The notes under the pieces were generated by a model. It did not search any database. It was not told the origin of the DNA and worked only from the letters and a program-made list of their open reading frames with translations. From Atopobiaceae bacterium (GTDB lineage Bacteria; Actinomycetota; Coriobacteriia; Coriobacteriales; Atopobiaceae), in NCBI GenBank assembly GCA_017513965.1, contig JAFWMI010000070.1, positions 1-64,000 of the forward strand: a stretch of 64,000 bases of DNA, read 5' to 3'. This document shows positions 2,161 to 38,088 of the stretch, piece after piece. The position numbers and the translations under genes were made by a program. Every line of letters begins with the position of its first letter. Position 1 is the stretch's first letter.

Positions 2161-2321
2161 GTTGGATTCCAATCTATCGAAGGAGCGCAAAACTAACGAA
2201 TAGTATATTATAGCGATTGGCAACTATAAGCGCCTTTAACAAACTGCTTGCTTCTTGTACTGGACGAGATTGGTCGTGTCAATTGTCAAATACTTCCCAT
2301 AATTCAGAGCCTCGAACAAGG

Positions 2322-3884
2322 ATGCGTTGTGTTGGAAGAGTCCTTTTGTTCTGCATCCTTTCTGGTGTAATGCTTTCGTTGCTGTCAACGCTGCTCAAGC
2401 CTTCCTTTGGCGACGAGGGAGAGAGCGTTCGCGGCATGTATCAGCAAGAGAAAAACAGTGCGCAGGTGGTTTGCTTTGGCGCGAGTACGCTGCTGCGATC
2501 ATTCTCGCCAGACTACCTATTTGAGCATGAGGGTATCTATGCCTACAACAACTGTTCGCCCAACCAGCCAACCATGGCATCGTATTACCTCCTCAAGGAT
2601 ACCCTTGAGCTGCATCCCAAGTCGTTGTCGCTCATCATATTGGATATGGCCCCACTGGTTCGTAACGACGGAAAGTTCGACTCGTTTGCATGGTTTGAGC
2701 GAGCTGCAGTAAACATGCGCTTTTCCATCAACAAGCTGGCTTTTATGTGGGACATATCGCGGTCCTATTCAGACTACAACCTTCTTGGGCACGTTTTGCC
2801 CGTGCTGAGCTATCACTCTAGGTGGGACCAGCTCGAAGAGGATGATTTTAAGCAAGTGGTTGATGGAAAGGTCGATACAAGCATGCATGGGCAGTGCTTG
2901 GGAGGCATTTCCTTCATATCTAATCGATCGCAGGGGAACGCTGGCAAATACACGGCCAACAATGTGGAAAGCATTACGAATCGCTTGGACTACTCAGAAG
3001 AGGAGCTGAGAGCCTATCAAAACGAGCTTTGTGCTGAGTATGCATCCAAGATAATAGCGCTTTGCAAAGAATCGGGCGTGCAAGTTCTCTTGCTCAAAAC
3101 CCCATCAAGCGCTTGGACTGACAAGGACCACGACTGCCTGACATCCTTTGCTCAGGAACACGAGGTAGACCTTCTTGATATGAATATTCCTGAAGTATGG
3201 CATCAGCTTGGGCTGTCTTACGATGACGATTATCGCGACTCAAAGCATGTAAACTTCTTGGGTAGCCTTAAGGTTACGGACTATGTTGGCAAATACCTTA
3301 CTGAGCACTTCGCCAGCATCCTCAAGCCCATTGAAACCGCCTCGCCATTTTCGGACGAGGACCTCAATACCTTCCACAATGCCATTGAGTCGGCGTCACT
3401 ACGTCGGTGTACTGATTTGAAGAGCTACCTTGCTATGATTAACCGGCAGCGCCTGACGGTATTCGTATCTACTAAAGGTGACGTGGCTCAATCCATTGAT
3501 TTGGAAACCAAACAGCTCATGGAACAACTTGGCATGAAGAAGCTCGCAAGCATTGGCAGCAACGAGTCGTATGTGGGTGTACTGAACCGTGGCCAGTGCG
3601 TGGGGGAACAAACGAGAAAACCTCATAAGACTGCAACGATTAATGGCACGTACGAGCATGGTGTAGTGCATCTGGGCAACGCTCGCATGCAAAAGGACGC
3701 GGTGTTTAACAACGCCCTTGATATTTCCAGCTCGGCAGAAGAGGCAGTGATTAAAGTCAACGGGAAAAATCGATCGGTCAACATGAATGGCATCAATTTT
3801 GTTGTTTATGACGAGGAGCAGGAAGCAGTGGTCGATACGAGCTGCTTTGACGCTACGAAGGCACCCAATCGCATATCTAATTAG
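2322..3884 (+). CDS. membrane-anchored SGNH/AlgX-like protein, partner of MBOAT
   Basis: A 520-residue protein with an N-terminal membrane anchor (about residues 6-25) and an extracytoplasmic domain. A 'CFGAS' block gives candidate nucleophile Ser55, and a later D-x-x-H-like block reads 'DSKHVNFLGS'. These fit the SGNH-like partners (DltD, AlgX/AlgJ, PatB) that act with MBOAT proteins in O-acylation. Start ATG 2322 is chosen because it gives a short basic stretch before the anchor, as in the paralogue at 15931. An earlier ATG at 2217 would add a non-membrane extension and overlap the MBOAT leader. The ribosome-binding site at 2322 is poor. The C-terminal ~170 residues have no recognised domain. 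It runs convergent to the next gene. Confidence 0.7.
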   Translation: MRCVGRVLLFCILSGVMLSLLSTLLKPSFGDEGESVRGMYQQEKNSAQVVCFGASTLLRSFSPDYLFEHEGIYAYNNCSPNQPTMASYYLLKDTLELHPKSLSLIILDMAPLVRNDGKFDSFAWFERAAVNMRFSINKLAFMWDISRSYSDYNLLGHVLPVLSYHSRWDQLEEDDFKQVVDGKVDTSMHGQCLGGISFISNRSQGNAGKYTANNVESITNRLDYSEEELRAYQNELCAEYASKIIALCKESGVQVLLLKTPSSAWTDKDHDCLTSFAQEHEVDLLDMNIPEVWHQLGLSYDDDYRDSKHVNFLGSLKVTDYVGKYLTEHFASILKPIETASPFSDEDLNTFHNAIESASLRRCTDLKSYLAMINRQRLTVFVSTKGDVAQSIDLETKQLMEQLGMKKLASIGSNESYVGVLNRGQCVGEQTRKPHKTATINGTYEHGVVHLGNARMQKDAVFNNALDISSSAEEAVIKVNGKNRSVNMNGINFVVYDEEQEAVVDTSCFDATKAPNRISN

Positions 3885-5180: not shown

Positions 5181-8100
5181 ATGAAGATCATTCCCCTCGT
5201 AAAGAAGACCCGTGACGTCGCAAAGCAGGCCAAGCGTATTGCACAGGCTGCGACTCACACACCTGCCAAGCAGAAATACTACTATGCGGAGTTTTGCAAG
5301 CATTGCCCCGTGGACGAGCGCAGGATGCTCTTTGAGTCCTTCCATGGCAAGAGCATATCGGACTCGTCGTATGCCGTCCTGCAAGAAATGGTTCGTCAGG
5401 GCATTGCCGAAGACTATGAGATTTACTACGCCACGAACGATCTCGCGCGCGATACGCCGTTTGTGGAGCACAATCAGCTACCTATCAAGCTCGTGGATAT
5501 TAATACGCGCAAGTATGCCTACATCGTGGCAACGGCTAAGTACCTGCTTAACAACAGTTCTTTTCCGCTCTGGCTCATTCGTCGTCCCGAGCAAGTATAT
5601 GTACAAACGTGGCATGGTACCCCACTCAAGACCTTGGGCAAAGAGATGCGTTTGGGCATTGAGTCTATGGTTAACGTGCAGCACAATTTTATTCAGGCAT
5701 CGTGGCTCACGTTTCCCAACGACTTTACCCGCGATGTAATCATGCGCGACTACAACTTGGACAAGCTGTTTACCGGCAAAGTTGCTATGGTGGGATATCC
5801 GCGCAATACCGTGTTTATGCGCGGGGCGGACGACTCGCTTCGTAAGAAATATGAACTGGATGGTTTTACCACCTATGCATACATGCCCACGTGGCGAGGC
5901 ACGAGCAACCACACGGTTGAGATTGCCAGTTACGCAGACTCTGTGTCCACGATGCTTCGTGAGCTAGACGCTCGTCTTACGGACAATCAAAAGGTCTTCG
6001 TTAACTTCCATTCTATGGTTGCGGGTGCCATTACGCTTGATGCATATGAGCATATTTTTCCATTTCCCACGGATGTGGGCACCTATGATTTCTTGGCCCA
6101 GATGGATGTGCTCATAACCGATTACTCCAGCGTAATGTTTGACTACGCCCTTACCCGCAAGCCCGTCGTGCTCTTTACGTACGACGAAGAGCAGTATCTA
6201 GCCGATCGTGGTATGTACTTCTCGTTGGAATCTCTACCCTTCGTTCAGGTTAAGACCATTGGCGAACTTGTTAATTGCTTGGATCAAAAAACCTATGCGC
6301 TTTCTGACGAAGACCTCTTATGGCTAAGCGAGCGTTTCTTGCCATACGACACGCCAGAAAATGCCCAGAACGTTCTTGCGCTCCTTTTGGGCCAGGTTCC
6401 TCAGGGGGTGTCGGTAATCGATTACGCCAGCAATGCTCTGCCAGCATGGAACGTCGTGGATGTTCCGGAGCAGAGAACGCGCGCGGACCTCAACGGGATC
6501 TTTCTCTCGTCCGACCCAACGCGGGACTTGGTGTTGCTCAATCGTCTTGGGTTTGGCCAAATAAAGTCAGTGCATCTGTATGACCACTTTCGCGAGTATC
6601 CCTTCTTGTTTGCGCGACGTGATCAGAATCCGCGCACGCCGGGAGAAGAGGTGGGGAGGTTTGTACTTCCTGCCGTGCGCAGACGTTTTGCCGAGCGTGA
6701 ACGCAAGCTGTTGTTTGGCGGGCTCACCGTTTCCACGAAGCCAAGAACGGTTTGTGTGTCGGGTACGGCGGACAGTACCTACAGCCCACAGCTCGAGATA
6801 ACCATGAGCGGCACGCTGAGCAGCGACGGCAATGAGGCGACGGTAACATTTGATGCGGGCAACGCGAGACCCGTGAAGATTATGCTTGCAACAGAGAATA
6901 GAATTCGTTGGTCTCGCGACCTCACGGAGCAGGAAGCTCGCGACAGTGCGGCAGCTATCGACGTGCTGCAACCCTTGTGCAGCTCCGACTTCCAAGCAAA
7001 GGTCAATTCGCGCGTAAAGGTATGTTTGCTCATTGAGGAGGCTGATGGCGCTCGCAAGGTTGCCGTGCTCAGTGCCCCTGCGAAGAAACACTCCACAACC
7101 GAAGGACTGGGTAGGCCGATTCAACCAGGCTTAGACGCCGTTAGGTCACACGTCACGTTTGATCGAGAGGGTAAATGCGGCATCCCCCTCATTGATGGCA
7201 TAAGAGACGACGCAATTGCTGTGGCACCGCTAAGAGGCGAAGGTGGAGTGCTTGAGCTGCTCTTCACGTATAGCCGCAACGTTGCTCAGGCATACCTCAC
7301 GCCCGTGGCAACAACCATAACGACGCCGCAGCAACGCTATTGTTCTATTCGCATCCAAATGCCCAATGGCGAGTACAAAGTCAATGCCGTTGAGCTTCGC
7401 AACCGTATGGGTACCATCAACACAGCGTATGGGATGAGCTTTATTGAGCGCACGAAAAAGTCCATGCGAATACTGGACGTTGTGTACGATCCGCGCGGAA
7501 GGGTGTACGACGGTATCTACTGGGATGTGTTTGTAGTGGTTACCGAGCGGGATGGGTCAACGTACGACCTTAAGTGCGGGACCTCCGATTTGTTGAGACA
7601 TTCGTTTTACTTCCGCAATCTTCAGTGTGACTTGGGGGACGGCAACATCGTCTTCCCCTATGCTACGGCAGGAACCAACCTCGCACTCTGCCACAGGCCA
7701 TTGCACGCGAGCGATTCCTTGGTGACCAAAGCTAAAGAGTGGGCTGCAATGGGGAGCTATCTCCTGCTCCTGCCCTATTGGAGCCACAAACGCATTTGGC
7801 TTGTATACGAAAAATTCTGCTCATTGGCTCAGGACAATGGCGCTGCGTTTTTCTCGTATTGTATGGAAGACGCTCCATCGGAAGCCCGTAAGCACGTGTT
7901 CTACGTTATGGACAAAGCGTCGTCTGAATATGCCAACGTTCAAAAGTATGGTCGCAATGTTATTGACTTTATGAGCTTTAGGCACATGTTGTACGCGCTC
8001 GCGGCCAACATCTATGTGGGCTCCGACTCCAAGTCGCACCTGTACCAATGGCGCCCCAAACCAAGCGTCGTGCGACAATTCATTATGCGCAAGGATGTGT

Positions 8101-8882
8101 TCTTCCTGCAACATGGCGTTACCGCCCTCAAGCGTGTCGACTACCTCTTTGGCAAACAGGGGACCTCGCCCATGACGTACTTCCTTACTACGTCACATGC
8201 CGAACAGGATGTGGTGGTCCAAAACTTTGGTTACGACCAACACCATGCGCCAGCTCTGGGGTTCTCTCGTTGGGACTTGCTGAGGGATACGTCGAACGGT
8301 AAGCAGCCGTCCATCCTCCTTATGCCTACTTGGCGGCAATGGTTGGAAGACGTGGGAAACGAGGCGTTCTTACAGAGTGACTATTTCCGCGCATATTCAG
8401 AACTCATACAAAGTGAGTCACTTAAGAAGTTGCTTGAGCAACATAATGCCAGGCTCAAGTTTTATATTCACCCAAAGCTGAGTGACCAGCTGCATCACTT
8501 TGGTACCAATTTCGAACGTGTTGAACTCGTTGAGATGGGATCCTGTTCGTTGAGCGATTTGATTATGGAATGCAACATGCTCATAACCGACTATTCGAGC
8601 GTGTGCTGGGATATGTTGTATTTGGATAAACCCGTGGTGTTCTATCAGTTTGACCAGGCGCAGTATGCAAGTGAAGTCGGTTCCTATATAGACCTCAACA
8701 ACGAGCTTCCAGGGCCAGTATGCAAGGATTTGGACGTGCTGGTCGATGAGGTAAAAACCGTTGCGGAGAGAGGCTTTGTGCTTGATGAACAGAGTGCGCA
8801 GCGTGCGCATAAGTGGTTTGACTTCAAGGACGATCACAACCGAAAGCGTACGTATGAGTTCTTGATTGAAGAGGGGCTGTAG
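5181..8882 (+). CDS. two-domain CDP-glycerol:poly(glycerophosphate) glycerophosphotransferase-like protein
   Basis: A 1233-residue protein with two Glyphos_transf (TagB/TagF) domains. Domain 1 shows 'TWHGTPLKTLG' (His145) and 'LITDYSSVMFDYA' (Asp314, Ser316). Domain 2 shows 'FLQHGVTALK' (His978) and 'LITDYSSVCWDM' (Asp1137, Ser1139). The family transfers glycerol-3-phosphate (or ribitol phosphate) from the CDP-activated form to a growing teichoic-acid chain on the inner membrane face. The middle, about residues 420-830, has no recognised fold and may hold a beta-rich linker. ATG 5181 follows AGGGAAG. Two complete transferase domains in one chain suggest either a primase plus polymerase or alternating linkages. 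It begins a same-strand series that runs to 14608. Confidence 0.85.
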   Translation: MKIIPLVKKTRDVAKQAKRIAQAATHTPAKQKYYYAEFCKHCPVDERRMLFESFHGKSISDSSYAVLQEMVRQGIAEDYEIYYATNDLARDTPFVEHNQLPIKLVDINTRKYAYIVATAKYLLNNSSFPLWLIRRPEQVYVQTWHGTPLKTLGKEMRLGIESMVNVQHNFIQASWLTFPNDFTRDVIMRDYNLDKLFTGKVAMVGYPRNTVFMRGADDSLRKKYELDGFTTYAYMPTWRGTSNHTVEIASYADSVSTMLRELDARLTDNQKVFVNFHSMVAGAITLDAYEHIFPFPTDVGTYDFLAQMDVLITDYSSVMFDYALTRKPVVLFTYDEEQYLADRGMYFSLESLPFVQVKTIGELVNCLDQKTYALSDEDLLWLSERFLPYDTPENAQNVLALLLGQVPQGVSVIDYASNALPAWNVVDVPEQRTRADLNGIFLSSDPTRDLVLLNRLGFGQIKSVHLYDHFREYPFLFARRDQNPRTPGEEVGRFVLPAVRRRFAERERKLLFGGLTVSTKPRTVCVSGTADSTYSPQLEITMSGTLSSDGNEATVTFDAGNARPVKIMLATENRIRWSRDLTEQEARDSAAAIDVLQPLCSSDFQAKVNSRVKVCLLIEEADGARKVAVLSAPAKKHSTTEGLGRPIQPGLDAVRSHVTFDREGKCGIPLIDGIRDDAIAVAPLRGEGGVLELLFTYSRNVAQAYLTPVATTITTPQQRYCSIRIQMPNGEYKVNAVELRNRMGTINTAYGMSFIERTKKSMRILDVVYDPRGRVYDGIYWDVFVVVTERDGSTYDLKCGTSDLLRHSFYFRNLQCDLGDGNIVFPYATAGTNLALCHRPLHASDSLVTKAKEWAAMGSYLLLLPYWSHKRIWLVYEKFCSLAQDNGAAFFSYCMEDAPSEARKHVFYVMDKASSEYANVQKYGRNVIDFMSFRHMLYALAANIYVGSDSKSHLYQWRPKPSVVRQFIMRKDVFFLQHGVTALKRVDYLFGKQGTSPMTYFLTTSHAEQDVVVQNFGYDQHHAPALGFSRWDLLRDTSNGKQPSILLMPTWRQWLEDVGNEAFLQSDYFRAYSELIQSESLKKLLEQHNARLKFYIHPKLSDQLHHFGTNFERVELVEMGSCSLSDLIMECNMLITDYSSVCWDMLYLDKPVVFYQFDQAQYASEVGSYIDLNNELPGPVCKDLDVLVDEVKTVAERGFVLDEQSAQRAHKWFDFKDDHNRKRTYEFLIEEGL

Positions 8883-8906: not shown

Positions 8907-10340
8907 ATGAGTTTTATGGAGTCACTAGGTGACAATAACATTGCTATAGGTGAACCCAAGTCGATGCGCAACGTTAAGGTGATTGTTGGAGGTGTGGGCA
9001 ACGTTGTGTGCTGGGAACCAGGCATTCGGCTTGAAGGGTGTACCATAGAGTTGCTGGGCAACAACTCACTGGTGTACGTGAGCAAAATGTTCCAACCCTT
9101 TCGCGCTCACATAATAATAGGTAATGGCGCTACCCTGTACATTGGGAATGATAGCTTCTTTCACCCAGAACAGCCCATACGCATAAATGTTGACGACAAT
9201 GCCGTGGTATGTTTGGGAAACGATTTGCTTACGTCGATTAACGTTAATGTGGATACCGCTGGTGATGGTAACGAGTTGAATGTGGGGGACCACAGTTGGC
9301 TGTGCCATGGCGCGTCGGTTATGGGGTCGAGCATAATTGCCCCCAACACGATTGTCGCTTCGCGCGCCTTGCTCAGGGATTGTCAAACCGATTCCTATTC
9401 ATGCTGGGGTGGCAAGAACAGATTGCTTCAGACAGACGTTCTGTTTAGCAAAGTGGGCCTTCGGCTTCTTACGCGAAGGCAGCTCAAGCTGCGAGAACAG
9501 CTTCCGACGAGTGAGGCGGATGCCATTCAAAACATTGCAGGTATTGACTTTGCGAGTCTTGTGCCAAGAATAAGAGAATGCAACACGCCGCAAGAACGCT
9601 GTGAGTGCATTGCCACAGAAAAAGAGTCGGTCAGATTCAAACGCATGAGAAATCCCAAGCTGAGTGCGGCGGGTAGGTTGGAAAGCATGCAAAACAAAGT
9701 CGCTGGACTATTCATGAGGAGCGACAACCTCATCCTTGGTGAATTCGAGGATGATAATGGTGACTCGCGCATTATGTTTAGCGGCACGGGTAATGTTATG
9801 ATTGTTGAGCCGGGCGTGCGCCTTTGCGGCTGCCTCATAAAGTTTAGGGGAAATAATGGTTTGCTCTACCTGAGTAGAAGTGACGAGCCGTATCGTTTTG
9901 TAACGACGATCCACAACGATTCTACTGTTTTTTTCGGACACAACAATCAATTTGCCTTACGAGGAAATCGAGTTCAGATTTCCCCTGCAGAAGGAAAGGC
10001 CATCGTCATAGGTAATCGTTGTAGACTTGAGGCGGGTACATGGATACGCACGAGTGACCAACATGCCATTTATTCTAAAAACACCCTCAAGCGTATTAAC
10101 CCCGCAGAGCCGGTGGTTTTTGCGCAAGACGTGGTGGCGGGTGAAGATTGCGTGGTCCAAAAAGGCGTGTGGGCCGATCGCTGTTCAATACTTGCACACA
10201 GTCTGGTTTTGCGGGACAAGAAGGACCATAATGATCCGTATGCAGAGCTTGCTCGCAAGCTTTCAAAAACATCATCCATGCGCTTTCGCAGACATGAGGC
10301 AAAGCGCTTTGCGAACAACAACTCGTATAACTCACGCTAG
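8907..10340 (+). CDS. duplicated left-handed beta-helix (hexapeptide) acetyltransferase-like protein
   Basis: A 477-residue protein made of two related halves. Residues ~20-165 and ~270-430 share the pattern 'VEPGxRLxGCxIxxxGNNxLxYxS' and then hexapeptide-like rungs such as IIIGNG, TLYIGN and AIVIGN. The second half carries 'SDQHAIYSKNTLKRINPAEPV' (His386), as in capsular sugar O-acetyltransferases of the left-handed beta-helix class. The first half lacks the equivalent histidine and may be structural. GGAG lies 5 bases before the ATG. It starts 24 bases after the glycerophosphotransferase gene, so co-transcription is likely. Role inferred: acetylation of a sugar in the same polymer. Confidence 0.6.
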   Translation: MSFMESLGDNNIAIGEPKSMRNVKVIVGGVGNVVCWEPGIRLEGCTIELLGNNSLVYVSKMFQPFRAHIIIGNGATLYIGNDSFFHPEQPIRINVDDNAVVCLGNDLLTSINVNVDTAGDGNELNVGDHSWLCHGASVMGSSIIAPNTIVASRALLRDCQTDSYSCWGGKNRLLQTDVLFSKVGLRLLTRRQLKLREQLPTSEADAIQNIAGIDFASLVPRIRECNTPQERCECIATEKESVRFKRMRNPKLSAAGRLESMQNKVAGLFMRSDNLILGEFEDDNGDSRIMFSGTGNVMIVEPGVRLCGCLIKFRGNNGLLYLSRSDEPYRFVTTIHNDSTVFFGHNNQFALRGNRVQISPAEGKAIVIGNRCRLEAGTWIRTSDQHAIYSKNTLKRINPAEPVVFAQDVVAGEDCVVQKGVWADRCSILAHSLVLRDKKDHNDPYAELARKLSKTSSMRFRRHEAKRFANNNSYNSR

Positions 10341-10538: not shown

Positions 10539-13289
10539 ATGGTCGATATACTTTACGACTTGTTTATTAGACCGCTTATCTTCGTCATTGATTTTGTATT
10601 CTCGATATCATTTAAGTTGCTTGATAATCCAGGCCTTTCGATTATTGTGGTGAGCATTGTTGTGAATGCCATTTGCATCCCGCTTTACGCTATGGCCGAT
10701 GCCCGCCAAGAGGAGGAGCGTGCCCGTCAAGCCAAAATGGACCGTTGGGTTACCCACATAAAGAAGACCTTTGTTGGTGACGAGCGATACATGATGCTCA
10801 ATGCGTACTACGAAGAGCAGGGGTACAAGCAATGGTACGCGCTTGGCAGCTCCGTTTCGCTCTTGTTGCAGATACCTATTTTCATGGCTGCGTACAGCTA
10901 TCTTTCGAACTTGGATGCATTGAGTGGCGCGTCGTTTTTGTTCATTGGTGATTTGGGGAAGCCAGATGCGCTGCTCCCAATAGGTGACATGCGCATAAAC
11001 GTACTTCCCGTGGTGATGACCTTGCTCAACTTTGTGTCGTCTGCCATTTACACGAGAGGCCTTCCCATAAAGGACAAAGTGCAGCCCTTTGGACTCGCTG
11101 CACTCTTCTTGGTGCTCTTGTACAACAGCCCGTCGGGCCTTGTGTTTTATTGGACCTGCAACCAAGTGTTTTCCTTGGCGCGCAACGTACTGACCAAGCT
11201 CGTGCATCCCTCTGCCAAGGCCACGACCGTTATGCTGCAAATCGTCGTGCTCGTAGTGGCGGCTCTTCTCATGTGGCTTGGCGTTGCGTCGAGACCAAAG
11301 CGACTCGTTGGACTCGTGTTGTTGGTTGTTGGAGCGGAATTTTTGCTCGTACGGTCTCGTCAGTCTCACGGCGAAGCAAGCGAAGAAGGCGAGTCGCGGA
11401 GCTATGTTAAAGAGTTCGTACTTGCGTCTCTGTTCCTGAGCGTGCTTGTTGGAGCGGTTATTCCTTCGGCGCTCTTTGTCTCGTCGCCGGCCCAGTTTGT
11501 TGCGGCGTGTAGCCCTTCTACGCCAGTGATGTATGTTCTGCACGTGTTTTGCGTTGCAACAGGCTTTTTTATGCTGTGGGGCGGTGTGTTCTTTTGGCTT
11601 TCGTCTGCGCGGGGCAAACGGGGTATGGCCTGCGGATGGTGGGTGCTCAGCGGTGTGTGTCTTGCAGACTATTTTGTTGAATACCATGCCTTGGGGGTTA
11701 TTAACACTACGCTTGTATATGACAATTCGCCAAAGTACAGCACACACGAGCAGCTCTTGGCGGCTGTGGCGGTGTGTGTGGCCATTGCGGGATTGCTGCT
11801 CGTATGGCGTCGCATCCCTCAGGTGGTGAATCCCGCACTTGCCATTATGACCATTGCCATGGTGGCCTTGGTTATGCCTCGCATGCTCGAGATTCATACG
11901 GCGACCGCAGAGGTGCTTGAGGCTTCCAACAGTGAGGGAGAGAGCAGGGCAAACGGCAACCTTTTCAATTCGGAGGGTAATCCACTTCCCATAATTAAGC
12001 TGTCCAAGACGGGCAAGAACGTGGTGATGTTGTATCTCGATCGAGGTATTAGCTGCTATGTGCCGTACATGTTCAATGAGCGTCCCGAGCTGGCACAAAA
12101 ATACGATGGCTTCGTGTACTATCCTAACACCATTTCGTTTGGCGAGTACACCGTGCTGGGTTCTCCCGCCGTATACGGAGGATATGACTACACGGTTACG
12201 GCCATGAATGAGCGGGACGACGAACTGCTCATAGACAAGCATCGCAATGCGCTTTTGCTCATGCCACGTCTCTTTTCTGATGCAGGTTACAAGGTAACGA
12301 TGATAGATGGTCCCGACGTTAACTATCGCTACGTAGGGTCGGACTTTCCGGAGATAGAGACCGTAGAGAACGCAACCTACTACCATGCTGCTGGCGCATA
12401 CAACGAGTACGTGGTTGCCTCCGAGGCAAATAAGACCAAGGAGCGCTTTCAGCGCAATATTGTGTACTATAGCTTGTTCTGCGCTTCGCCTGCGTTTGTA
12501 CGTGGGGCAATCTACGATAAGGGAAGCTACTTGGCGCCCCAAATTGAGGCTGGCTACCCGAGCGACTTCCTCAATCACTATTCGGCCGTAAAGATGCTTC
12601 CCCAGATTACGACTGTAGACGAGGAGTCGTCTGGCAATCTTATACTGTTCGATACCGAGGAGACTCACGAGCCCGCCCAGCTGAACCTGCCCGATTATAC
12701 GCTGGAGCCCACAACAGAAGAGGCAATTGCCGAGGACTACGATCGTTTTACGCTCGATGGTAAGTCGCTGCGTATGGATGGCGATACACGTATACAGCAT
12801 TATCATGTGAACATGGCGGCATTCCTTATGTTGGGCGACTGGCTCGATACGCTGCGCACCCTGGGTGTGTACGACAATACCCGCATTGTAATTGTGTCCG
12901 ACCATGGGCGCGGTATGCATCAATCTTCCGACTTGCTGGTGCCCGGTTTAATTGATGGGGAGACGTTTGACGCGGAATGGGTAAATCCCGTGTTCATGGT
13001 CAAAGATTTTGATGCCCATGGGTTCTCCACGTCAAACGAGTTCATGACAAATGCCGATACGCCCTCAATCATGATGGAGGGCATTGTGAAAGACCCCGTG
13101 AATCCAGATACGGGAAATCCGGTGAACACGGACGAAAAGACTGCGCACGACCAGATTATTAGCACTTCGCATAACTGGAATCTTGGAAAACAAAGAAACC
13201 TCACTGTGTACGATACCTCCGACGGTGAGTGGGTTTCGGTACACGATAGTATCTTTGATGTAACGAATTGGTCCTATCTTGGTAAGTAA
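10539..13289 (+). CDS. YidC/Oxa1-like domain fused to a sulfatase/LtaS-type domain
   Basis: A 916-residue membrane protein. Residues ~10-225 match the YidC/Oxa1/Alb3 insertase core: transmembrane helices, a basic coiled hairpin near 'ADARQEEERARQAKMDRW', and the end signature 'GLVFYWTCNQVFSLARN'. About eight further hydrophobic segments follow (to ~445). Then comes an extracytoplasmic alkaline-phosphatase-superfamily domain with 'NVVMLYLDRG', candidate nucleophile Thr538 in 'GEYTVLGSPAVYGG', and metal-binding 'SDHGRGMH' (Asp788, His789). Sulfatase-type enzymes such as LtaS and the phosphoethanolamine transferases transfer phospho-groups outside the cell. ATG 10539 has GGAG 8 bases upstream; the TTG two codons earlier is less likely. 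The pairing of an insertase-like domain with such an enzyme is unusual. Its role in making or anchoring the polymer is inference. Confidence 0.8.
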   Translation: MVDILYDLFIRPLIFVIDFVFSISFKLLDNPGLSIIVVSIVVNAICIPLYAMADARQEEERARQAKMDRWVTHIKKTFVGDERYMMLNAYYEEQGYKQWYALGSSVSLLLQIPIFMAAYSYLSNLDALSGASFLFIGDLGKPDALLPIGDMRINVLPVVMTLLNFVSSAIYTRGLPIKDKVQPFGLAALFLVLLYNSPSGLVFYWTCNQVFSLARNVLTKLVHPSAKATTVMLQIVVLVVAALLMWLGVASRPKRLVGLVLLVVGAEFLLVRSRQSHGEASEEGESRSYVKEFVLASLFLSVLVGAVIPSALFVSSPAQFVAACSPSTPVMYVLHVFCVATGFFMLWGGVFFWLSSARGKRGMACGWWVLSGVCLADYFVEYHALGVINTTLVYDNSPKYSTHEQLLAAVAVCVAIAGLLLVWRRIPQVVNPALAIMTIAMVALVMPRMLEIHTATAEVLEASNSEGESRANGNLFNSEGNPLPIIKLSKTGKNVVMLYLDRGISCYVPYMFNERPELAQKYDGFVYYPNTISFGEYTVLGSPAVYGGYDYTVTAMNERDDELLIDKHRNALLLMPRLFSDAGYKVTMIDGPDVNYRYVGSDFPEIETVENATYYHAAGAYNEYVVASEANKTKERFQRNIVYYSLFCASPAFVRGAIYDKGSYLAPQIEAGYPSDFLNHYSAVKMLPQITTVDEESSGNLILFDTEETHEPAQLNLPDYTLEPTTEEAIAEDYDRFTLDGKSLRMDGDTRIQHYHVNMAAFLMLGDWLDTLRTLGVYDNTRIVIVSDHGRGMHQSSDLLVPGLIDGETFDAEWVNPVFMVKDFDAHGFSTSNEFMTNADTPSIMMEGIVKDPVNPDTGNPVNTDEKTAHDQIISTSHNWNLGKQRNLTVYDTSDGEWVSVHDSIFDVTNWSYLGK

Positions 13290-13330: not shown

Positions 13331-14608
13331 ATGATGCACGGAATAATGGACAGCGCATTGTGCTATATCGACCCGGGAACGGGCAGCATGTTGTTTACGC
13401 TTCTTATTGGAGCGGTGAGCACTGCCTACTTTATGTTCCGAAAACTCGCGATGCGCGCAAAGTTTCTTGTTGCCGGCGGAAGGTCTGCGAATGCTGACAC
13501 CAGCCGTCATCCCATTGTTATTTTTTCCGATGACAAGCGGTACTGGAATGTGTTCAAGCCAATCTGCGATGAGTTGGAGCTCCGGGGGCAAGCGGCGGTG
13601 TATTGGACGGCTTCCGCTGATGACCCGGCCCTTGACGAATCTTACGAGCACGTGCAGTGCGAATTTATTGGAGAAGGCAACCAGGCATATGCGCGGCTCA
13701 ATGTAATGTCTGCAAGCATCTGCCTGGCGACCACTCCCGGGCTGGGTGTCTATCAGTGGAAGCGCTCGAAAGAAGTGGGCGAGTACGTGCACATATTCCA
13801 TTCTGTGGGTACGGCTGCGGGATACCGCATGTTTGGTTTGGACTTTTACGACAGTGTGCTGATTGCTGGCGATTACCAAGTGCAGGAGATCCGTGCCTTG
13901 GAAGAATTGCGTGGAATTCAACATAAGAATTTAGTACGCGTTGGTTGTACCTACTTGGACGCAATGATGGATCGCGCGCGTGCCCTTCCTACTGCCAAGG
14001 ATCATCCGTTCTGTGTGTTGGTGGCGCCTTCGTGGGGACCAACGTCGCTGTTGTGTGCCTATGGTGATCGTTTGCTCGATGCGCTGCTGGCAACGGGCTA
14101 TAAGGTAGTGGTGCGTCCTCATCCACAGTCGAAGACCGCCGACAAGGAGGTGCTCGATCGCCTGATGCGAGCGTATCCAGATGCAGAAAACTTCAGCTGG
14201 AACTTTGACAACGACAATTTTGAGGTCCTCGCAAATGCAGACGCGATGATTACCGACTTCTCCGGCGTGGTGTTTGACTACGCGCTTGTGTTCGATCGTC
14301 CCATTCTCTACACGGAAGGAAGCTACGTGGACGATCCGTATGACTCAGCTTGGCTGGTCGATCAAGGTCCTCTTTGGAAGTTTAAGACGTATCCAAAGCT
14401 TGGTCGTCCGCTCGACGAGACACAGCTACCCCACCTGCGAGAGGTGCTTCAGGATCTCGTCGCAGATGAGGATTTGTTGGCGGTGCGTCAGCAAGTACGT
14501 GAGGAGGCATGGTGCTGCCAGGGCCAGAGCGTCAAGCTAACCGTAGATTATTTAATCGCGCGATGTGCTGCGTTGGCTGTGGATTCCCAAAACAACGATA
14601 GCGAGTAG
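13331..14608 (+). CDS. CDP-glycerol glycerophosphotransferase family protein
   Basis: A 425-residue protein. Its N-terminus has a short 'YIDPGTGSMLFTLLIGAVSTAYF' membrane segment. The rest resembles the Glyphos_transf fold: 'HIFHSVGTAAGYRMF', then 'VLVAPSWGPTSLL' and 'MITDFSGVVFDYALVFDRP' (Asp309, Ser311). The family moves a glycerophosphate unit onto a lipid-linked or growing polymer. It begins 42 bases after the YidC-sulfatase gene, with AGGAG 7 bases before the ATG, and is probably in the same operon. It is shorter and more divergent than the protein at 5181, and may be the priming enzyme. Confidence 0.7.
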   Translation: MMHGIMDSALCYIDPGTGSMLFTLLIGAVSTAYFMFRKLAMRAKFLVAGGRSANADTSRHPIVIFSDDKRYWNVFKPICDELELRGQAAVYWTASADDPALDESYEHVQCEFIGEGNQAYARLNVMSASICLATTPGLGVYQWKRSKEVGEYVHIFHSVGTAAGYRMFGLDFYDSVLIAGDYQVQEIRALEELRGIQHKNLVRVGCTYLDAMMDRARALPTAKDHPFCVLVAPSWGPTSLLCAYGDRLLDALLATGYKVVVRPHPQSKTADKEVLDRLMRAYPDAENFSWNFDNDNFEVLANADAMITDFSGVVFDYALVFDRPILYTEGSYVDDPYDSAWLVDQGPLWKFKTYPKLGRPLDETQLPHLREVLQDLVADEDLLAVRQQVREEAWCCQGQSVKLTVDYLIARCAALAVDSQNNDSE

Positions 14609-15930: not shown

Positions 15931-17346
15931 ATGCGAAAAAAACTATTACGCTGTAGCGCTTTTTTTATTATTACTATTTGTGTGGTGTACGGAATATCTG
16001 TTCCGTTTAGGTTAACAAGCTACATGAATAAGGAGATGTATCGCTCCCTGTACCAAGAGCCCGATAACAGTTACGATGCGCTCATTGTGGGCGGGAGCAA
16101 TGTATATACTTTTTGGCAAGCGCCATTAGCTTGGAAGGAATATGGAATTGCCGCATTTCCTCTTTCCACCCCAGGCTTGCCATGCGATGCGATTCCGTAT
16201 CTCATCGAAGAGGCGGAGAAGACGCAGAAGCAACCCTTAATTGTGATTACGGTCAATTCCATAAAGGGTACTAAGAACTATATAACTGAGGAGAGGCTTC
16301 ACTGGTTCCTTGATCACATGCGGCTATCTCCCCTAAAACTGCAGGCCGTTAACGAATTAAGCAACAAGGCCCATCTGGGGTTGGCTCGTCTCTCACTCGT
16401 GCTTCCTGTTCTTCGGTTTCATGCAAACTGGAGTCAGCTTGGTTCTGAGGAGTACGAGAGCGTGCCACAAGGTCTAAAGGGCGCGGCAACCTACGAAAAC
16501 TTTTTGTACCGTGTTGTCGACGAAACGCAAAATTACGTAGAGAGTGACAAAAGACGCAGTCTTAACAAAAGCCTAGAAAAAACGCTAACCGCGCTCTTGT
16601 CCTTTCTTGAGCCCAGACGCTCTAGGGTGTTGTTCGTAAGGCTGCCTCAGGCGGTTGGTTCAGAGTCGCGTGTTGCCGAACTGAATTCGATTGGCGACAC
16701 CATACAAGCGCGGGGGTTCGATTATCTGGACTTGGGCAATGCCAAAGATGAGATTGGTTTGGATCTTACGGAAGACTTCGACAACAAAGTTCACGCAAAT
16801 GCCCGTGGTGCCATTAAGTTCACCCACTATTTTGGCAAGTACTTGAGTGACCGATACGGATTTGCTGACAAGCGTGGAAGCGACGAATACAAGCTGTGGG
16901 ACGAGGCGGCGGAGTCCTATGACGAGTTACTGCTTACCAGTGTCCTTCCATTCGAGTTGAACCGAGAGGCCAGGAACAACAGCATAGTCTCTCCAGCTAT
17001 TATGGCGGCTGCCACGGGTGATGGCGTGCATCTTTCGTGGACGGCGAGCGAGCATGCCGATGGGTACCTTGTATACCGTCGAATGAAGGCTCCTAGCTTC
17101 GTAGATTGTATAGCGCAAAACGAGAACCTGTCCACGTACGCATGGTCACACGTTGCGTCCTTACCAAATAACGTGCTTTCTTTTACGGATGATAATCCAA
17201 ACTCAAAAACGACATACTACTACACCGTGGTCCCCTATGTTGTGGATGGCGATCAACGGGTTTATGGCAGATTTAACATCAATGGTGCTGAGGTAACCAC
17301 GCAAGAGCTCAAAACGAAAACAAAGGTGGGCGGTGGTGTCCAGTGA
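15931..17346 (+). CDS. membrane-anchored SGNH/AlgX-like protein with C-terminal FnIII-like domain
   Basis: A 471-residue protein with an N-terminal anchor (about residues 7-25). A 'LIVGGSNVYTFW' block gives candidate Ser56, and 'NKVHANARGAIKFTHYFG' supplies the late histidine of SGNH/AlgX/DltD-like partners. Residues ~355-455 look like a fibronectin-III-type domain ('VHLSWTASEHADGYLVYRR'). The last 4 bases overlap the start of the MBOAT gene (GTG 17343), so translation is probably coupled and the two proteins act together. It resembles the protein at 2322 in plan but is not a recent copy: the motif spacing agrees, the C-terminus does not. Confidence 0.72.
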   Translation: MRKKLLRCSAFFIITICVVYGISVPFRLTSYMNKEMYRSLYQEPDNSYDALIVGGSNVYTFWQAPLAWKEYGIAAFPLSTPGLPCDAIPYLIEEAEKTQKQPLIVITVNSIKGTKNYITEERLHWFLDHMRLSPLKLQAVNELSNKAHLGLARLSLVLPVLRFHANWSQLGSEEYESVPQGLKGAATYENFLYRVVDETQNYVESDKRRSLNKSLEKTLTALLSFLEPRRSRVLFVRLPQAVGSESRVAELNSIGDTIQARGFDYLDLGNAKDEIGLDLTEDFDNKVHANARGAIKFTHYFGKYLSDRYGFADKRGSDEYKLWDEAAESYDELLLTSVLPFELNREARNNSIVSPAIMAAATGDGVHLSWTASEHADGYLVYRRMKAPSFVDCIAQNENLSTYAWSHVASLPNNVLSFTDDNPNSKTTYYYTVVPYVVDGDQRVYGRFNINGAEVTTQELKTKTKVGGGVQ

Positions 17347-18932
17347 CCTTCGTTTCTCCTAAGTTCTTGCTATTCATCGCACTAGTGCTGTGTGCTTATT
17401 TTGTTGCTCCAAAGAAGGTGCGCTGGATTGTTCTTTTGGTTGCGAGCTATGCATTCTATTACTTGAGTAGCGGCAAGTTATTGCTCATACATATGATAAC
17501 AACGGTAGTTACGTTTGTTGTCGCGCGCTGGATCTATGCCATCAATGAGCAAGGCAAGCGGGAGTTGGCTCGAAGCAAATTGCCCCGTAAGGAAAAGAAA
17601 GCTCTGCGCGCGCAGATTAAGCGTAAGGCGCGGCCTGTACTGGTTCTTGGCATATGTGTGGTTCTTAGCTTGTTGCTCGTGCTCAAGTATTACAACTTCT
17701 TCGCCGACAACATCAATAGTCTGGTTGGTGCTTCGCGGGGAGGACTGCCGTATTTGAGCCTGCTCTTGCCAATTGGTATTTCGTTTTATACGCTGCAGGC
17801 GATTGCATACATGGTAGACGTCTATAGGGGCAAGTGTCTGCCAGATTCAAATATCTTTAAATTTGCGCTCTTTATGTCGTTCTTTCCCCAAATCGTGCAA
17901 GGACCAATTCCACGCTATAAGCAGCTTGCAAATCAGCTGTATGAGCCACACGATTTTGATTACGTGCGCGTATGCCATGGTGCCCAGCTTGTGCTGTGGG
18001 GATGGATTCAAAAAATGATTATTGCCGACCGTCTGGCGATTCCCGTTAATGAGGTGTTCGAACACTACGAGAACTACCACGGCCTTTTGGTGTTTTTGGC
18101 AGCAGCGGGATATGGCCTACAGGTTTATACCGATTTTTCTGGTGGTATGGACATTGCGCGCGGTGTGTCGCAAATGCTTGGCATCGAGCTTGAACTCAAC
18201 TTTAAACAGCCATACTTTTCTACCAGTATAGAAGACTTTTGGCGTCGTTGGCACATTACCCTTGGCTCATGGATGAAGAATTATGTGTTCTATCCACTAT
18301 CTCTATCTAGGAGCTTTGCAACGCTAAGCCGCAGGTCGCGCAAGTTTCTTGGTGACTTTGTGGGGAAGCGGCTTCCGCCCATTTTGGCTATGTTCATCGT
18401 GTATTTCCTTGTTGGGTTTTGGCACGGTGCGGACTGGAAATACATCGCATACGGTGTATGGAATGGCATATTCTTGGTTTTGGGCATCCTGCTGCCCGAG
18501 CAGTATGCGCGTTGGGCTGATGCATGTCATATTGACCGCGAATCCTTTTCGTGGCGGGCGTTCCAAATCACGCGTACCTTTTGCATTTGTTCCTTGGGGC
18601 GGTTGTTCTCACGCGGCGTAAGTTTTACTGCTGCGATTAGCATGTTCTCGTCTATTGGTTACCGCTGGAGGGACCTGTCGTTTTTGTATGACGGTACCTT
18701 TACTGCCTTGGGCTTGGCGACGCCCGAATGGTTCGTACTCATTGCGTTTGTGGCCATACTGCTTCTTGTGGATAGATACCACGAGCGGGGTGGCCACATC
18801 CGCGAGAGCATTGATCGGCAAAACCTCGTTTTTAGGTGGGCCGTATATATTGGAGCCATCGTAGCCATTTTGATTTTTGGATCCTACGGATCAGGTTTTG
18901 AAGCTGTTAGCTTTATCTACGGTGGGTTCTAA
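17343..18932 (+). CDS. MBOAT family O-acyltransferase (DltB/AlgI-like), second copy
   Basis: A 529-residue MBOAT protein that starts with GTG overlapping the upstream stop by 4 bases. It shows 'EDFWRRWHITLGSWMKNYVF' (His304) and 'VGFWHGADW' (His361), a conserved 'GISFYTLQAIAYMVDV', and hydrophobic spans throughout. It is a close paralogue of the protein at 574-2160. The family transfers acyl groups through the membrane onto polymers with an SGNH-like partner, here the preceding gene. A hairpin at 18962-19000 ends the unit. With an acyl carrier protein and a DltA-like ligase next door, an aminoacyl or acyl substrate is plausible. Confidence 0.87.
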   Translation: MTFVSPKFLLFIALVLCAYFVAPKKVRWIVLLVASYAFYYLSSGKLLLIHMITTVVTFVVARWIYAINEQGKRELARSKLPRKEKKALRAQIKRKARPVLVLGICVVLSLLLVLKYYNFFADNINSLVGASRGGLPYLSLLLPIGISFYTLQAIAYMVDVYRGKCLPDSNIFKFALFMSFFPQIVQGPIPRYKQLANQLYEPHDFDYVRVCHGAQLVLWGWIQKMIIADRLAIPVNEVFEHYENYHGLLVFLAAAGYGLQVYTDFSGGMDIARGVSQMLGIELELNFKQPYFSTSIEDFWRRWHITLGSWMKNYVFYPLSLSRSFATLSRRSRKFLGDFVGKRLPPILAMFIVYFLVGFWHGADWKYIAYGVWNGIFLVLGILLPEQYARWADACHIDRESFSWRAFQITRTFCICSLGRLFSRGVSFTAAISMFSSIGYRWRDLSFLYDGTFTALGLATPEWFVLIAFVAILLLVDRYHERGGHIRESIDRQNLVFRWAVYIGAIVAILIFGSYGSGFEAVSFIYGGF

Positions 18933-21725: not shown

Positions 21726-22345
21726 GGTACGGAACAAGGAGAAATTGGTTAAGCTCTTTTAGACCAGAATTGACATCGCCTCCGGTCCCCAAAGGTCGTC
21801 CTCCGTTACCTCCGGCATCCTGCCCTCCCAGTACTCCCAGAACGGCTACGGCTCGTCGGTGAGCATCCCGCGCGTCACCCGGTAGGTGCCGTTGGCGACG
21901 TGGGCGCGCAACGCCTCGACCGACGAGGAGTCGGACCTCCTCACCTGCTCGGACCAGCAGAACCACCACTTATAGAAACGTTTCTATAAGTGGTGGTACG
22001 TCTACCTGTTTCGCGTCAAGCAGGCGGACGAGAGGTGGCCCAAAACTGCAATGCTGCTCTGCCATTTGATGCTCACCGACGCACGTTATCGCAGCTCAAG
22101 GAAGCGCTAGCATCCGCACACTGGTTGACTATTCAAAAGAGCTTAAAAATAAACGAACAGGAAAGAATAAAGATTTATGTGAGTAATCATATCAAAGCTC
22201 AACTCTGGCGTTCTAACGGCCTTCGATTACGAGAGGTATTCGACTGTTTGTTTCCGCCTACAGAAATCTTTCAGGTATTGGTTTGCTGAAGTGGCATCAT
22301 TGTCGGTGTCCTGTCGGCGGTAAGCTGAAGAAAGAAGGGTTTGGT
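21726..22345. other. gene-poor scar region with degenerate open frames
   Basis: No intact gene is seen. Bases ~21775-21970 read on the minus strand give a coding-like stretch (…SSVEALRAHVANGTYRVTRG… then a TAG, then …FWEYWEGRMPE…) with one in-frame stop. The plus strand after the palindrome reads KRFYKWWYVYLFRVKQADERW and stops near 22110. Neither is identified. The middle is GC-richer than the flanks. A possible promoter for the next gene is TTGACT (22125-22130), a 17-base spacer, then AATAAA (22148-22153). A remnant of a mobile or deleted gene is likely. Confidence 0.5.
21962..21997. repeat. 36-bp perfect palindrome
   Basis: The sequence is fully self-complementary from 21962 to 21997, centred on CG at 21979-21980, with no mismatches. 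Each half encodes part of KRFYKWW in one frame, once on each strand. There is no T tract and it lies in the scar between genes, so a simple terminator is not the best reading. Confidence 0.9.
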
Positions 22346-25300
22346 ATGTACGATGGCGAATGCGCGGCTGTTCGCGGACAAAGGGTGAGAGGGAGGTTTT
22401 TCTGGGCGACTTTAGCAAGTCTGGTGCTCATCTGTGGGCTGATAGCATTGCCTCGGCATGCCTATGCGGAGGATCTGCAGGCTGCAAACGGCGAACAAGT
22501 TGAGGAGCTGCAAAGCACGGGTGAGTCTTTGCCGGTGGGCGAAGAAGAACCCAAGGACGAGAATGAAGTCGGCCAAGCTTCTACTACGGACAATGCTGGT
22601 ACCGGGGGCGAAACGAACGGGAACGAACCCATCGGTGAATCTGACGAGAATACGCAGGGTGAAGAGAATCTCGTTGACGTAGGCGTCGACAGTGGCAGCT
22701 CGGCAGACGACGCCGAAGGTATCGGTACTGCCGAGCTCAATGGTGGCGATATTGCAAACGACGAGATTGTGAAGGATGGTGGTCAGGAAGCCGTAAAGAC
22801 GGTTGGAGAGTCCATCACAACAACCGAATTACCGAAGAGCTCAGAGCCCATTGCTTTGGCCTCCAACATCACGGAAGCGAGTCGAGCGGCAGAGGCAAGG
22901 AGAGTGCCCGCTGCAACGGCGGCTACGCCCAAGTCTGCCCAGCCCGTTTTGCAAACCCAGGCCTCCAGGAAAACCTACAAGGTGACGTTCTACGATGCCT
23001 TTGGCAATGTTGCCAAGGTGGTCAAGGTCAAGGCGGGTGGCAAGGCAAAAGCTCCCAAGCTTGCCAAGGCACTCAATCGAAAGTTTCTTGGTTGGGATAT
23101 CAAGTTCAACAAGGTCACCAAGAACTTGCACGTACATCCCAAGTACAGGGATGCTAAGAAATCGTACGTTTTTAGCTGGAACGTATCTGGTTCCGTTATT
23201 AACTGGTTCCGTGCCAAGAAGGGCGTGAAGGTCTCTCTTGAAGAGTATTGGCGTGGCAATTATGGCTACATGAACGTAAAAAACATCAAGAGCTGGAATA
23301 CCAAACCCGATGGCAGCGGTACGTCCTATGCGCCCGACGCAGTAATCAAGACTCCAGCGCGTGACGTAGCGCTCTATGCGATGCTCAGCAAGAAGCAAAA
23401 GATGGTAAAGGTGACGCTCAAGCCAAATCGTGGCACTGGGTATAACACCACGCTCTATGTGCCAGCCGGAGAGAAGACATCGGTTCTTAATGGGGGCAGC
23501 CCAACCACTGATGATGGATATGCACTCGTGGGTTACGCCACAAAGAAGAATGCCAAGAAGCCCACGTATGCGGTCAACAGCACCATTAAGCCAAAGAGAA
23601 ACATGACGCTGTATGGTGTGTGGAAGAAGGCCAAGAGTCCGCTTCGGTTTAAGGCCAACTATGCTGGTGGAACTGACACCACTACCTATCTTGCAGGCGG
23701 ATATACGTATTCGTTGGAAGATGGCGAAATATACCGTGACGGATATACGCTCGTGGGTTGGAACACCAAGAAGAACGGCAAGGGGACAAAATACAACCTC
23801 TATGCGGACAAGGGGCTTACCGAGTATACCGGTGCCTTTACCAAGTTGCCGAGCAAGGGCCTTACGCTCTACGCACGATGGAAGAAGCTTCCCTCGCGCA
23901 AGCTCACATATAACTACAACATGGGTGCCAAGTCGTATACCTACTCCGATACCTACCATCCGGGGACTAAGCTGCTTACAAGCTCATACGCTAATGGGCG
24001 CGACGGGTACGCGCTCGTGGGCTGGAACACCAAGAAAAACGGCAAGGGGACCACATATGCGACCCGTGAGTTGTTTACGATGCCCAAAAAGAAGCTCACG
24101 CTCTACGCTCAGTGGAAGAAGGCAAACTCTGTCGTAACGTACGACTATAACTATAAGGGTGCCACAAAGAATGTGTATAAAAAGGCCGAGGGCTCTGTGG
24201 CGCACTACAGCTCCTACGGCTATCGCGAGGGATACTCCTTGGTGGGCTGGAACACCAAGAAGAACGGCAAAGGAATGCGTTTCGACATCAACGCATCCTG
24301 CTTTGTGCCCAAGGGCAGAACGACGCTTTACGCTCAATGGAAGAAGCTCCCTTGCGTCACCTTTAAGGCAAACTACGTTGGTGCGGGAGATGCCGATAGC
24401 AAGCAATACGGTACGGCGGGTGACGAGCGTACGATAAGCACCGATCACTACCGTGAAGGCTATTCGTTGCTTGGCTATACGACCAAGAGCAACGGCAAGG
24501 GCAAGATGTATAGGATTGGCGCAACATACAAGTTCCCCAAAAAGAACCTTGCGCTCTATGCCAAGTGGGGCAAAAACAACGTGAACGTGAATTTGGTTGG
24601 CAATTACAAGGGTGCGAAGACGTCTACGACCAAGGCTGCTGCCGGCGCCAAGCTTACTTCTACAAACGTTGATTACTACGATTACCCGTATCGCGACGAT
24701 TATAGCTTTGCTGGCTGGAACACAAAGGCCAACGGAAAGGGCACACACTATACCAGCGATGATTTCAACGACGTGACCGTTCCCAAGAAGGGCCTCACGC
24801 TCTATGCGGAGTGGGTAAAGAATCCTGTCGTCACGTTCGTGGCCAACAACGGCACCAAGGATATGACGTCTGTTACCGACCGCTATGTGTATATGGGAAC
24901 GAGATACTACGCCAAGGCAGGCAAGGCAATGGCGAACTGGAATACCAAGGCTAACGGCAAAGGAACATCGTTTTCTATTGGCGAGAATGTAAACAACCTC
25001 CCCTCGAATCTCAAAGTGTTTGCGCAGTGGAAAAAGCCTACGGCAAAGATTGTGCTCAAGGGCAACCACGCAGGCGTTAAGGACCAGACCGTGGGCGTCA
25101 TTGGCAATGCACGCAATGGGTATGATTTGCCAGATATGAGCGATACCGCTCGTGATTACTTCTATGAGTGGAATACCAAGGCCAATGGCAAGGGCGAGCA
25201 CTATTCGTCTTATTCTCAGAATACCTATATTCCCAAGAAGGGCCTCACGCTTTATGCGATATGGAAGCCCAAGAAGGTACTCACGCTCAATCCGAATGGT

Positions 25301-38019: not shown

Positions 38020-38088
38020 AGGGCGACCTTTCATTAATGGTTTGATACCAAGAATGAAAGTATAGAGAACATGCCACGTTTAAGAAAG

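Follow-up and report, generated by a model that had tools for sequence, protein, structure and literature searches.

A YidC-like domain fused to an extracytoplasmic sulfatase-fold enzyme in an Atopobiaceae bacterium, with a proposed role in decorating surface glycans with phospho-head groups

Modification of glycans by GtrA/GtrB/GtrC relies on three components and follows a logic in which a lipid-linked donor is made inside the cell, flipped, and transferred outside. Outward-facing enzymes such as LtaS/LtaP, EptA/EptC, MCR-1 and PbgA are anchored by about five transmembrane helices, while TagF/TagB (PF04464) are cytidine diphosphate (CDP)-glycerol glycerophosphotransferases. In the Lic and Pnt pathways (LicABCD; PntC, PMC6697681), choline and phosphonates are activated as CDP-choline and cytidine monophosphate (CMP)-phosphonates, and the cytoplasmic enzyme LicD is the expected transferase. 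According to the available text of the PntC study (PMC6697681), carbohydrate or lipid nucleophiles presumably capture CMP-2-aminoethylphosphonate (CMP-AEP), and LicD-like enzymes receive a mention; no CMP-AEP transferase is assigned by experiment in that text. Here we describe a gene that combines elements of these systems in a 64,000-nucleotide stretch of DNA from an Atopobiaceae bacterium of the order Coriobacteriales (assembly GCA_017513965.1, contig JAFWMI010000070.1, positions 1 to 64,000 of the forward strand; hereafter, the window). Its 916-residue product joins a YidC/Oxa1-like domain to an extracytoplasmic alkaline-phosphatase-superfamily domain, and belongs to an apparently undescribed family that is widespread among gut bacteria. 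A search of the open-licence literature (subscription journals fell mostly outside its scope) returned no description of a YidC-sulfatase or YidC-glycerophosphotransferase fusion. The novelty is in the combination of parts, each of which belongs to a known superfamily.

The fusion gene (10539..13286, stop codon 13287-13289) lies on the + strand, as do all features below whose coordinates are joined by two dots. An alternative in-frame start, TTG 10533, is present upstream in the same open reading frame; a GGAG located approximately 8 bases 5' of ATG 10539 and the alignment of relatives agree with the ATG. Residues 1-222 (10539..11204) form the YidC/Oxa1-like domain, which terminates in 'GLVFYWTCNQVFSLARN' and matches Pfam YidC (60KD_IMP, PF02096) over residues 32-219 (E 7.5e-20, 72 bits, cut-off 35), although the score against NCBIfam TIGR03592 (YidC) is 74.6 bits, under the curated cut-off of 84.3. 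After seven further predicted transmembrane helices (residues 223-470, 11205..11948), residues 491-916 (12009..13286) constitute the sulfatase/LtaS-like domain, with a match to Pfam Sulfatase (PF00884) at residues 515-797 (E 2e-7, 31.1 bits, cut-off 25). A profile built from 67 relatives ranks solved YidCs first (E 1.4e-12), followed by sulfatases and phosphonate monoester hydrolases.

The AlphaFold2 model of the whole chain has a mean predicted local distance difference test score (pLDDT) of 87.8 and a predicted template modelling score (pTM) of 0.74. Since the fold search with the whole chain was dominated by the sulfatase domain and uninformative on the YidC part, residues 1-478 were modelled separately (mean pLDDT 89.2, pTM 0.84). 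The fold of residues 1-222 matches Bacillus halodurans YidC2 (3wo7_B; Z 18.0, root-mean-square deviation 3.0, 208 residues aligned) and Escherichia coli YidC (6al2; Z 17.2), including the core helices. For residues 491-916 the matches were choline sulfatase (Z 20.7), LtaP (20.2), phosphonate monoester hydrolase (20.1), EptC (19.0), MCR-1 (18.6) and LtaS (18.5), several of them tied and LtaS level with many sulfatases. Twelve transmembrane helices are predicted in the fusion, the first five corresponding to the YidC domain and the other seven spanning, in the models, residues 226-246 to 427-469; no known fold surfaced for these seven in the fold searches, which barely probed the helices. Across the 67 sequences the loop charges obey the positive-inside rule when the N-terminus is placed outside together with the C-terminal enzyme domain, which accordingly faces outward.

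A first-pass annotation of the stretch had already read the protein as a YidC-like N-terminus, about eight further helices and an extracytoplasmic alkaline-phosphatase-superfamily domain. The two end domains are borne out by profile and fold (a missing YidC match of the N-terminal region had been named beforehand as one of two refuting outcomes), and the extra helices exist, but the model places seven, not eight, between the domains. Likewise, the Thr538 (12150..12152) that it put forward as nucleophile is invariant, together with the candidate metal ligand Asp501 (12039..12041), the candidate active-site His710 (12666..12668) and the candidate metal ligands Asp788-His789 (12900..12905), all identical in 67/67 aligned fusion sequences and matched to LtaS residues by motif rather than by residue-level structural alignment. 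The 'SDHGRGMH' that it regarded as metal-binding is found in the window protein, but only DHG is strongly conserved among relatives. The outward-facing domain, with its candidate Thr nucleophile, Asp-His motif and fold scores of Z 18-20, resembles LtaS/LtaP, EptA/EptC, MCR-1 and PbgA; in contrast to these enzymes, the fusion has 12 transmembrane helices including a YidC domain, is paired with a GT-B protein and keeps other gene company.

The YidC domain has itself diverged from its canonical relatives. The groove arginine (E. coli R366) is kept in 17/17 canonical YidCs from related genomes. The window protein has Asn43 (10665..10667) in its place, and of the 38 YidC-sulfatase fusions in the tree set 33 have Asn, 3 have Ser and 2 have Gln. 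In proteins where the YidC domain is instead joined to a GT-B domain the residue is Lys in 33/33. Canonical, YidC-sulfatase and YidC-GT-B domains fall into three separate clades on long stems, a tree that is compatible with one or two origins of the fused domains and cannot say which. A separate canonical YidC is encoded on another contig of the window genome, and canonical-size matches distinct from the fusion occur in other fusion-bearing genomes (G004, G006, G015, G045 and G053). A housekeeping insertase role was rejected on these two grounds, the canonical YidC elsewhere in the genome and the loss of the groove Arg.

Relatives were gathered in one scan of GTDB contigs, in which at least 568 stretches were confirmed. 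The best 79 of these loci align essentially end to end at 36-45% identity and include Coriobacteriales, Lachnospiraceae, Oscillospiraceae, Negativicutes and others; isolates are represented too, for instance Butyrivibrio sp. MB2005 and Schwartzia succinivorans DSM 10502, with full-length orthologues. Full-length fusions of the same length across so many species exclude chance and assembly error, the latter being the second refuting outcome named with the first-pass annotation; the YidC-sulfatase fusion is real and occurs intact in many species. Such proteins are widespread across Lachnospiraceae, Oscillospiraceae and Coriobacteriia, where automatic annotation as YidC or sulfatase probably hides them. 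Two or more copies are found in 15 loci. One array (L089:1-17817) contains, on either side of or next to a single GT-B partner gene, a tandem series of seven YidC-sulfatase genes or pieces of genes, and pairs and triples of the same kind occur in L120, L074, L095, L107, L112, L113 and others.

The GT-B partner is encoded immediately downstream of the fusion in the window (13331..14605) and consists of an N-terminal YIDPGTGSMLFTLLIG membrane anchor followed by a GT-B domain that falls in the CDP-glycerol glycerophosphotransferase clan (PF04464, 43.6 bits, cut-off 22.1); a scan of the curated NCBIfam library gave no match of any kind. Among the 75 loci with a gene on each side of the fusion, 62 have a GT-B partner within two genes. 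His157, Arg262-x-His264-Pro and Asp309-x-Ser311 are 98-100% conserved in 74 members of the partner family, which shares with TagF/TagB the clan and the conserved His and DxS motifs; unlike those enzymes the partner is short, is membrane anchored or fused to YidC, and its use of CDP-glycerol is putative. The first-pass annotation had asked whether the fusion always sits beside TagF-like genes; this needs revision, the constant neighbour being this small anchored protein of the TagF clan and not TagF itself. In one locus the partner is 721 residues long (L078:12708-14870), with an additional C-terminal portion of ~290 residues that contains a transmembrane helix and probably an extracytoplasmic domain.

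The three parts (YidC-like, sulfatase-like and GT-B; together, the module) also occur in other orders. We refer to the arrangement of the window as type 1; in type 2 the YidC domain is fused to GT-B, and in type 3 all three domains share one chain. A genome of the same family as the window genome (G043, locus L046) has the reversed arrangement, with a 648-residue YidC-GT-B protein and two sulfatases of 701-703 residues that carry a YVDPSVMTY anchor and no YidC. Matches to the YidC-GT-B type are present in 78/299 genomes of the order, a count that includes partial and GT-B-only matches, and in nearly every locus examined the gene directly adjoins a YVDPSVMTY-anchored sulfatase. Four loci (L161, L172, L185 and L188) encode single chains of 1357-1391 residues with all three domains. 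Pfam recovers YidC (E 1e-24 or better) and Sulfatase in three of these chains, with PF04464 slightly below cut-off, and the partner profile matches the GT-B part of L161 and L172 at 1e-75 to 1e-82. Because the domains have been fused repeatedly in different orders, the comparison provides strong evidence, drawn from sequence, that the three act together.

The gene company of the module points to choline and phosphonates. Genes for activation with cytidine triphosphate (CTP) lie within the same operon-like run as the fusion in 27/84 type-1 loci. Some runs read LicC-LicA-LicB/EamA-GT-B-fusion (e.g., L063 and L081; in L077 and L103 the lic genes come after), others PntC-GT-B-fusion (L098, L102, L106, L111 and L125), extended to PntC-GT-B-fusion-LicD in Butyrivibrio sp. 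MB2005, and in L078 and L094 a set comprising phosphoenolpyruvate (PEP) mutase/PntC, alcohol dehydrogenase (ADH) and phosphonopyruvate decarboxylase adjoins the GT-B and fusion pair. Many type-2 and type-3 loci have linked choline or AEP activation genes as well; in L185 the triple fusion is next to an NTP-transferase/ADH protein and a PEP mutase. The calls of PEP mutase, phosphonopyruvate decarboxylase and AEP aminotransferase pass NCBIfam equivalog cut-offs; the LicC, LicA and LicB labels are softer, resting on Pfam domains (NTP_transferase, Choline_kinase and EamA) and similarity. Across the order, LicC-LicA is found in 51/55 genomes that carry a YidC-GT-B or triple fusion vs 90/244 of the others (Fisher p 4e-15, phylogeny ignored), and within 10 kb in 15 of them. 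PEP mutase is present in just 9/299 genomes, and the module occurs in 6 of these (p 0.019, phylogeny again ignored); for one calculation its base rate in Clostridia was set at an assumed 5%. Two proteins of these pathways were noted in passing. The first (L160:4804-6591) is a LicC-LicA type fusion of helix-turn-helix, NTP transferase and choline kinase, with matches in 141/299 genomes of the order and often two or three copies per genome. The second, in a phosphonate locus that has no module (G181, L193:10464-11789), is a weakly related Glyphos-like protein of 442 residues beside a PEP mutase, a candidate alternative phosphonate transferase.

In such loci the module is linked, in operon-like fashion, to the same CDP-choline and CMP-phosphonate activation steps as the Lic and Pnt pathways, but in many loci the GT-B and YidC-sulfatase pair occupies the expected place of the cytoplasmic transferase LicD. 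This gene company suggests that the fusion, together with a third protein, may add phosphocholine-like or phosphonate groups to the cell surface. The first-pass annotation had suggested a polymer synthase or a route that delivers a lipid or chain to the enzyme. The former needs revision, as choline- or phosphonate-activating genes are the neighbours recognised most often, an indication of added phospho-substituents rather than of glycerol phosphate polymerisation; a synthase deduced from LtaS identity was also unsupported, LtaS being tied with many sulfatases and the gene context being different. The latter receives indirect support from the replacement of the groove Arg, the permuted and single-chain fusions and the lipid scrambling by YidC in vitro discussed below. 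Overall, the observation behind that annotation is confirmed by profiles, fold and orthologues, and its interpretation is partly supported and extended.

We propose, at a little under even chances, that the fusion supplies the exporter/transferase half of an envelope machine with three parts, which decorates surface glycans with phospho-head groups. In a first step, the cytoplasmic GT-B protein would take the phospho-head group from a CDP- or CMP-activated donor, which may be CDP-choline or CMP-AEP in many relatives and perhaps CDP-glycerol or another compound at the window, and pass it to a membrane lipid carrier. The YidC-like domain, with its arginine-less groove, would then offer a polar, membrane-thinning path for the head group to the outer leaflet, where the extracytoplasmic domain would accept the group on Thr538 and hand it to a surface glycan. 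A single loader serving several tandem transferases would suit different acceptor sites. With regard to the central step, lipid scrambling in vitro has been shown for E. coli YidC and for other insertases of the Oxa1 family (PMC10491306), which makes the crossing of a head group physically plausible. The broader idea, that the YidC/Oxa1 fold has been recruited as a dedicated lipid-head-group translocase (a GT-B loader, an insertase-fold flipper and an outside transferase of phosphocholine, aminoethylphosphonate or similar), we hold more tentatively. If correct, an insertase fold works within a cell-surface decorating enzyme, and the in vitro scrambling has a dedicated physiological use. The module would also provide candidates for the enzymes that place CMP-activated phosphonates and CDP-choline on the glycans of gut anaerobes, and would supply the transferase step that many Lic and Pnt clusters lack. 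It would constitute a phospho-analogue of GtrA/GtrB/GtrC, with which no part is known to be homologous and from which it would differ in moving a phosphate-linked group and in having a YidC relative as its proposed flippase.

Several observations weigh against this proposal. Most of the 84 type-1 loci are without a recognised activation gene in the same run, and the window genome gave no match to LicC-LicA, PEP mutase or a CDP-glycerol synthetase. Further cytidylyltransferase-like genes are present in that genome, and glycerol phosphate as the head group at the window, suggested by the TagF-like neighbour, is only a guess. The scrambling of lipids by YidC is known from in vitro work and simulation only. 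In addition, a 730-residue relative of the window protein (L044:7494-9683 and L045:8679-10868) has lost YidC after ~40 residues and kept the transmembrane and sulfatase parts; its carriers, G021 and G051, hold a YidC-GT-B protein elsewhere in the genome. Finally, in one phosphonate genome (G039) the cluster includes LicD and the three-part module is absent, so the module is one among several solutions.

The alternative that survives best, though we consider it rather unlikely, is an LtaS/GacH-like enzyme whose sulfatase domain moves glycerol phosphate from outer-leaflet phosphatidylglycerol to a wall polymer, with an independent cytoplasmic GT-B and the YidC domain as a mere scaffold. LtaP and LtaS are indeed among the fold matches, and the window cluster encodes a double TagF-like protein, but the tie of LtaS with many sulfatases blunts the first argument, and the first metal ligand, which is Glu in LtaS, is a conserved Asp in the fusion. 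Such an enzyme would, furthermore, explain neither the three permuted GT-B fusions nor the recurrent linkage to genes that activate choline and phosphonates with CTP. Less probable still is a YidC-like domain dedicated to inserting or chaperoning the membrane proteins of the module itself, for example in translocating the short YIDPGTGS N-tail of the partner. YidC inserts proteins with short N-tails, and an anchor of the YIDPGTGS type is borne by whichever partner lacks YidC. However, the groove Arg is replaced by Asn, Ser or Gln in every one of the 38 type-1 rows while a housekeeping YidC is present, the single-chain type has no separate partner to insert, and every gene of a tandem array would bring its own insertase.

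We give little credence to a hydrolase (phosphodiesterase, phosphonate monoesterase or sulfatase) that strips groups from surface glycans. Choline sulfatase and phosphonate monoester hydrolases match the fold as well as LtaS does and also give sequence matches, but the clusters hold genes for synthesis and activation and no catabolic set was seen in them, and sulfatases need a formylglycine that derives from Cys or Ser, while the residue in the fusion is always Thr. Lastly, an assembly or annotation artefact joining two genes, conceivable for a draft genome of 323 contigs, is practically out of the question given the full-length orthologues in many independent genomes, the two isolates among them.

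Besides the fusion and its partner, further genes of the window were noted. A 1233-residue protein with two TagF-like (Glyphos_transf) domains (5181..8879; PF04464, E 2e-98 over two stretches) has several hundred residues of other sequence between the two stretches, and a hexapeptide-repeat protein (8907..10337, PF00132) is encoded just upstream of the fusion. Two MBOAT acyltransferases are found at 577-2223 and within 15931-18929; the second is preceded by a protein without Pfam match (15931-17343), a pair that resembles a wall O-acylation pair. The sole Pfam match of a 555-residue protein (2217-3881) is ILEI (interleukin-like EMT inducer; 34.6 bits, cut-off 27), unusual in a bacterium, and a 1075-residue protein (22283-25507) has three Listeria-Bacteroides repeat (Flg_new) stretches. 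Farther along, a DegT aminotransferase and an ATP-grasp ligase have two proteins without Pfam match (34117-35427 and 36646-38034) as neighbours, and the group may be a distinct cluster for a surface sugar or a peptide.

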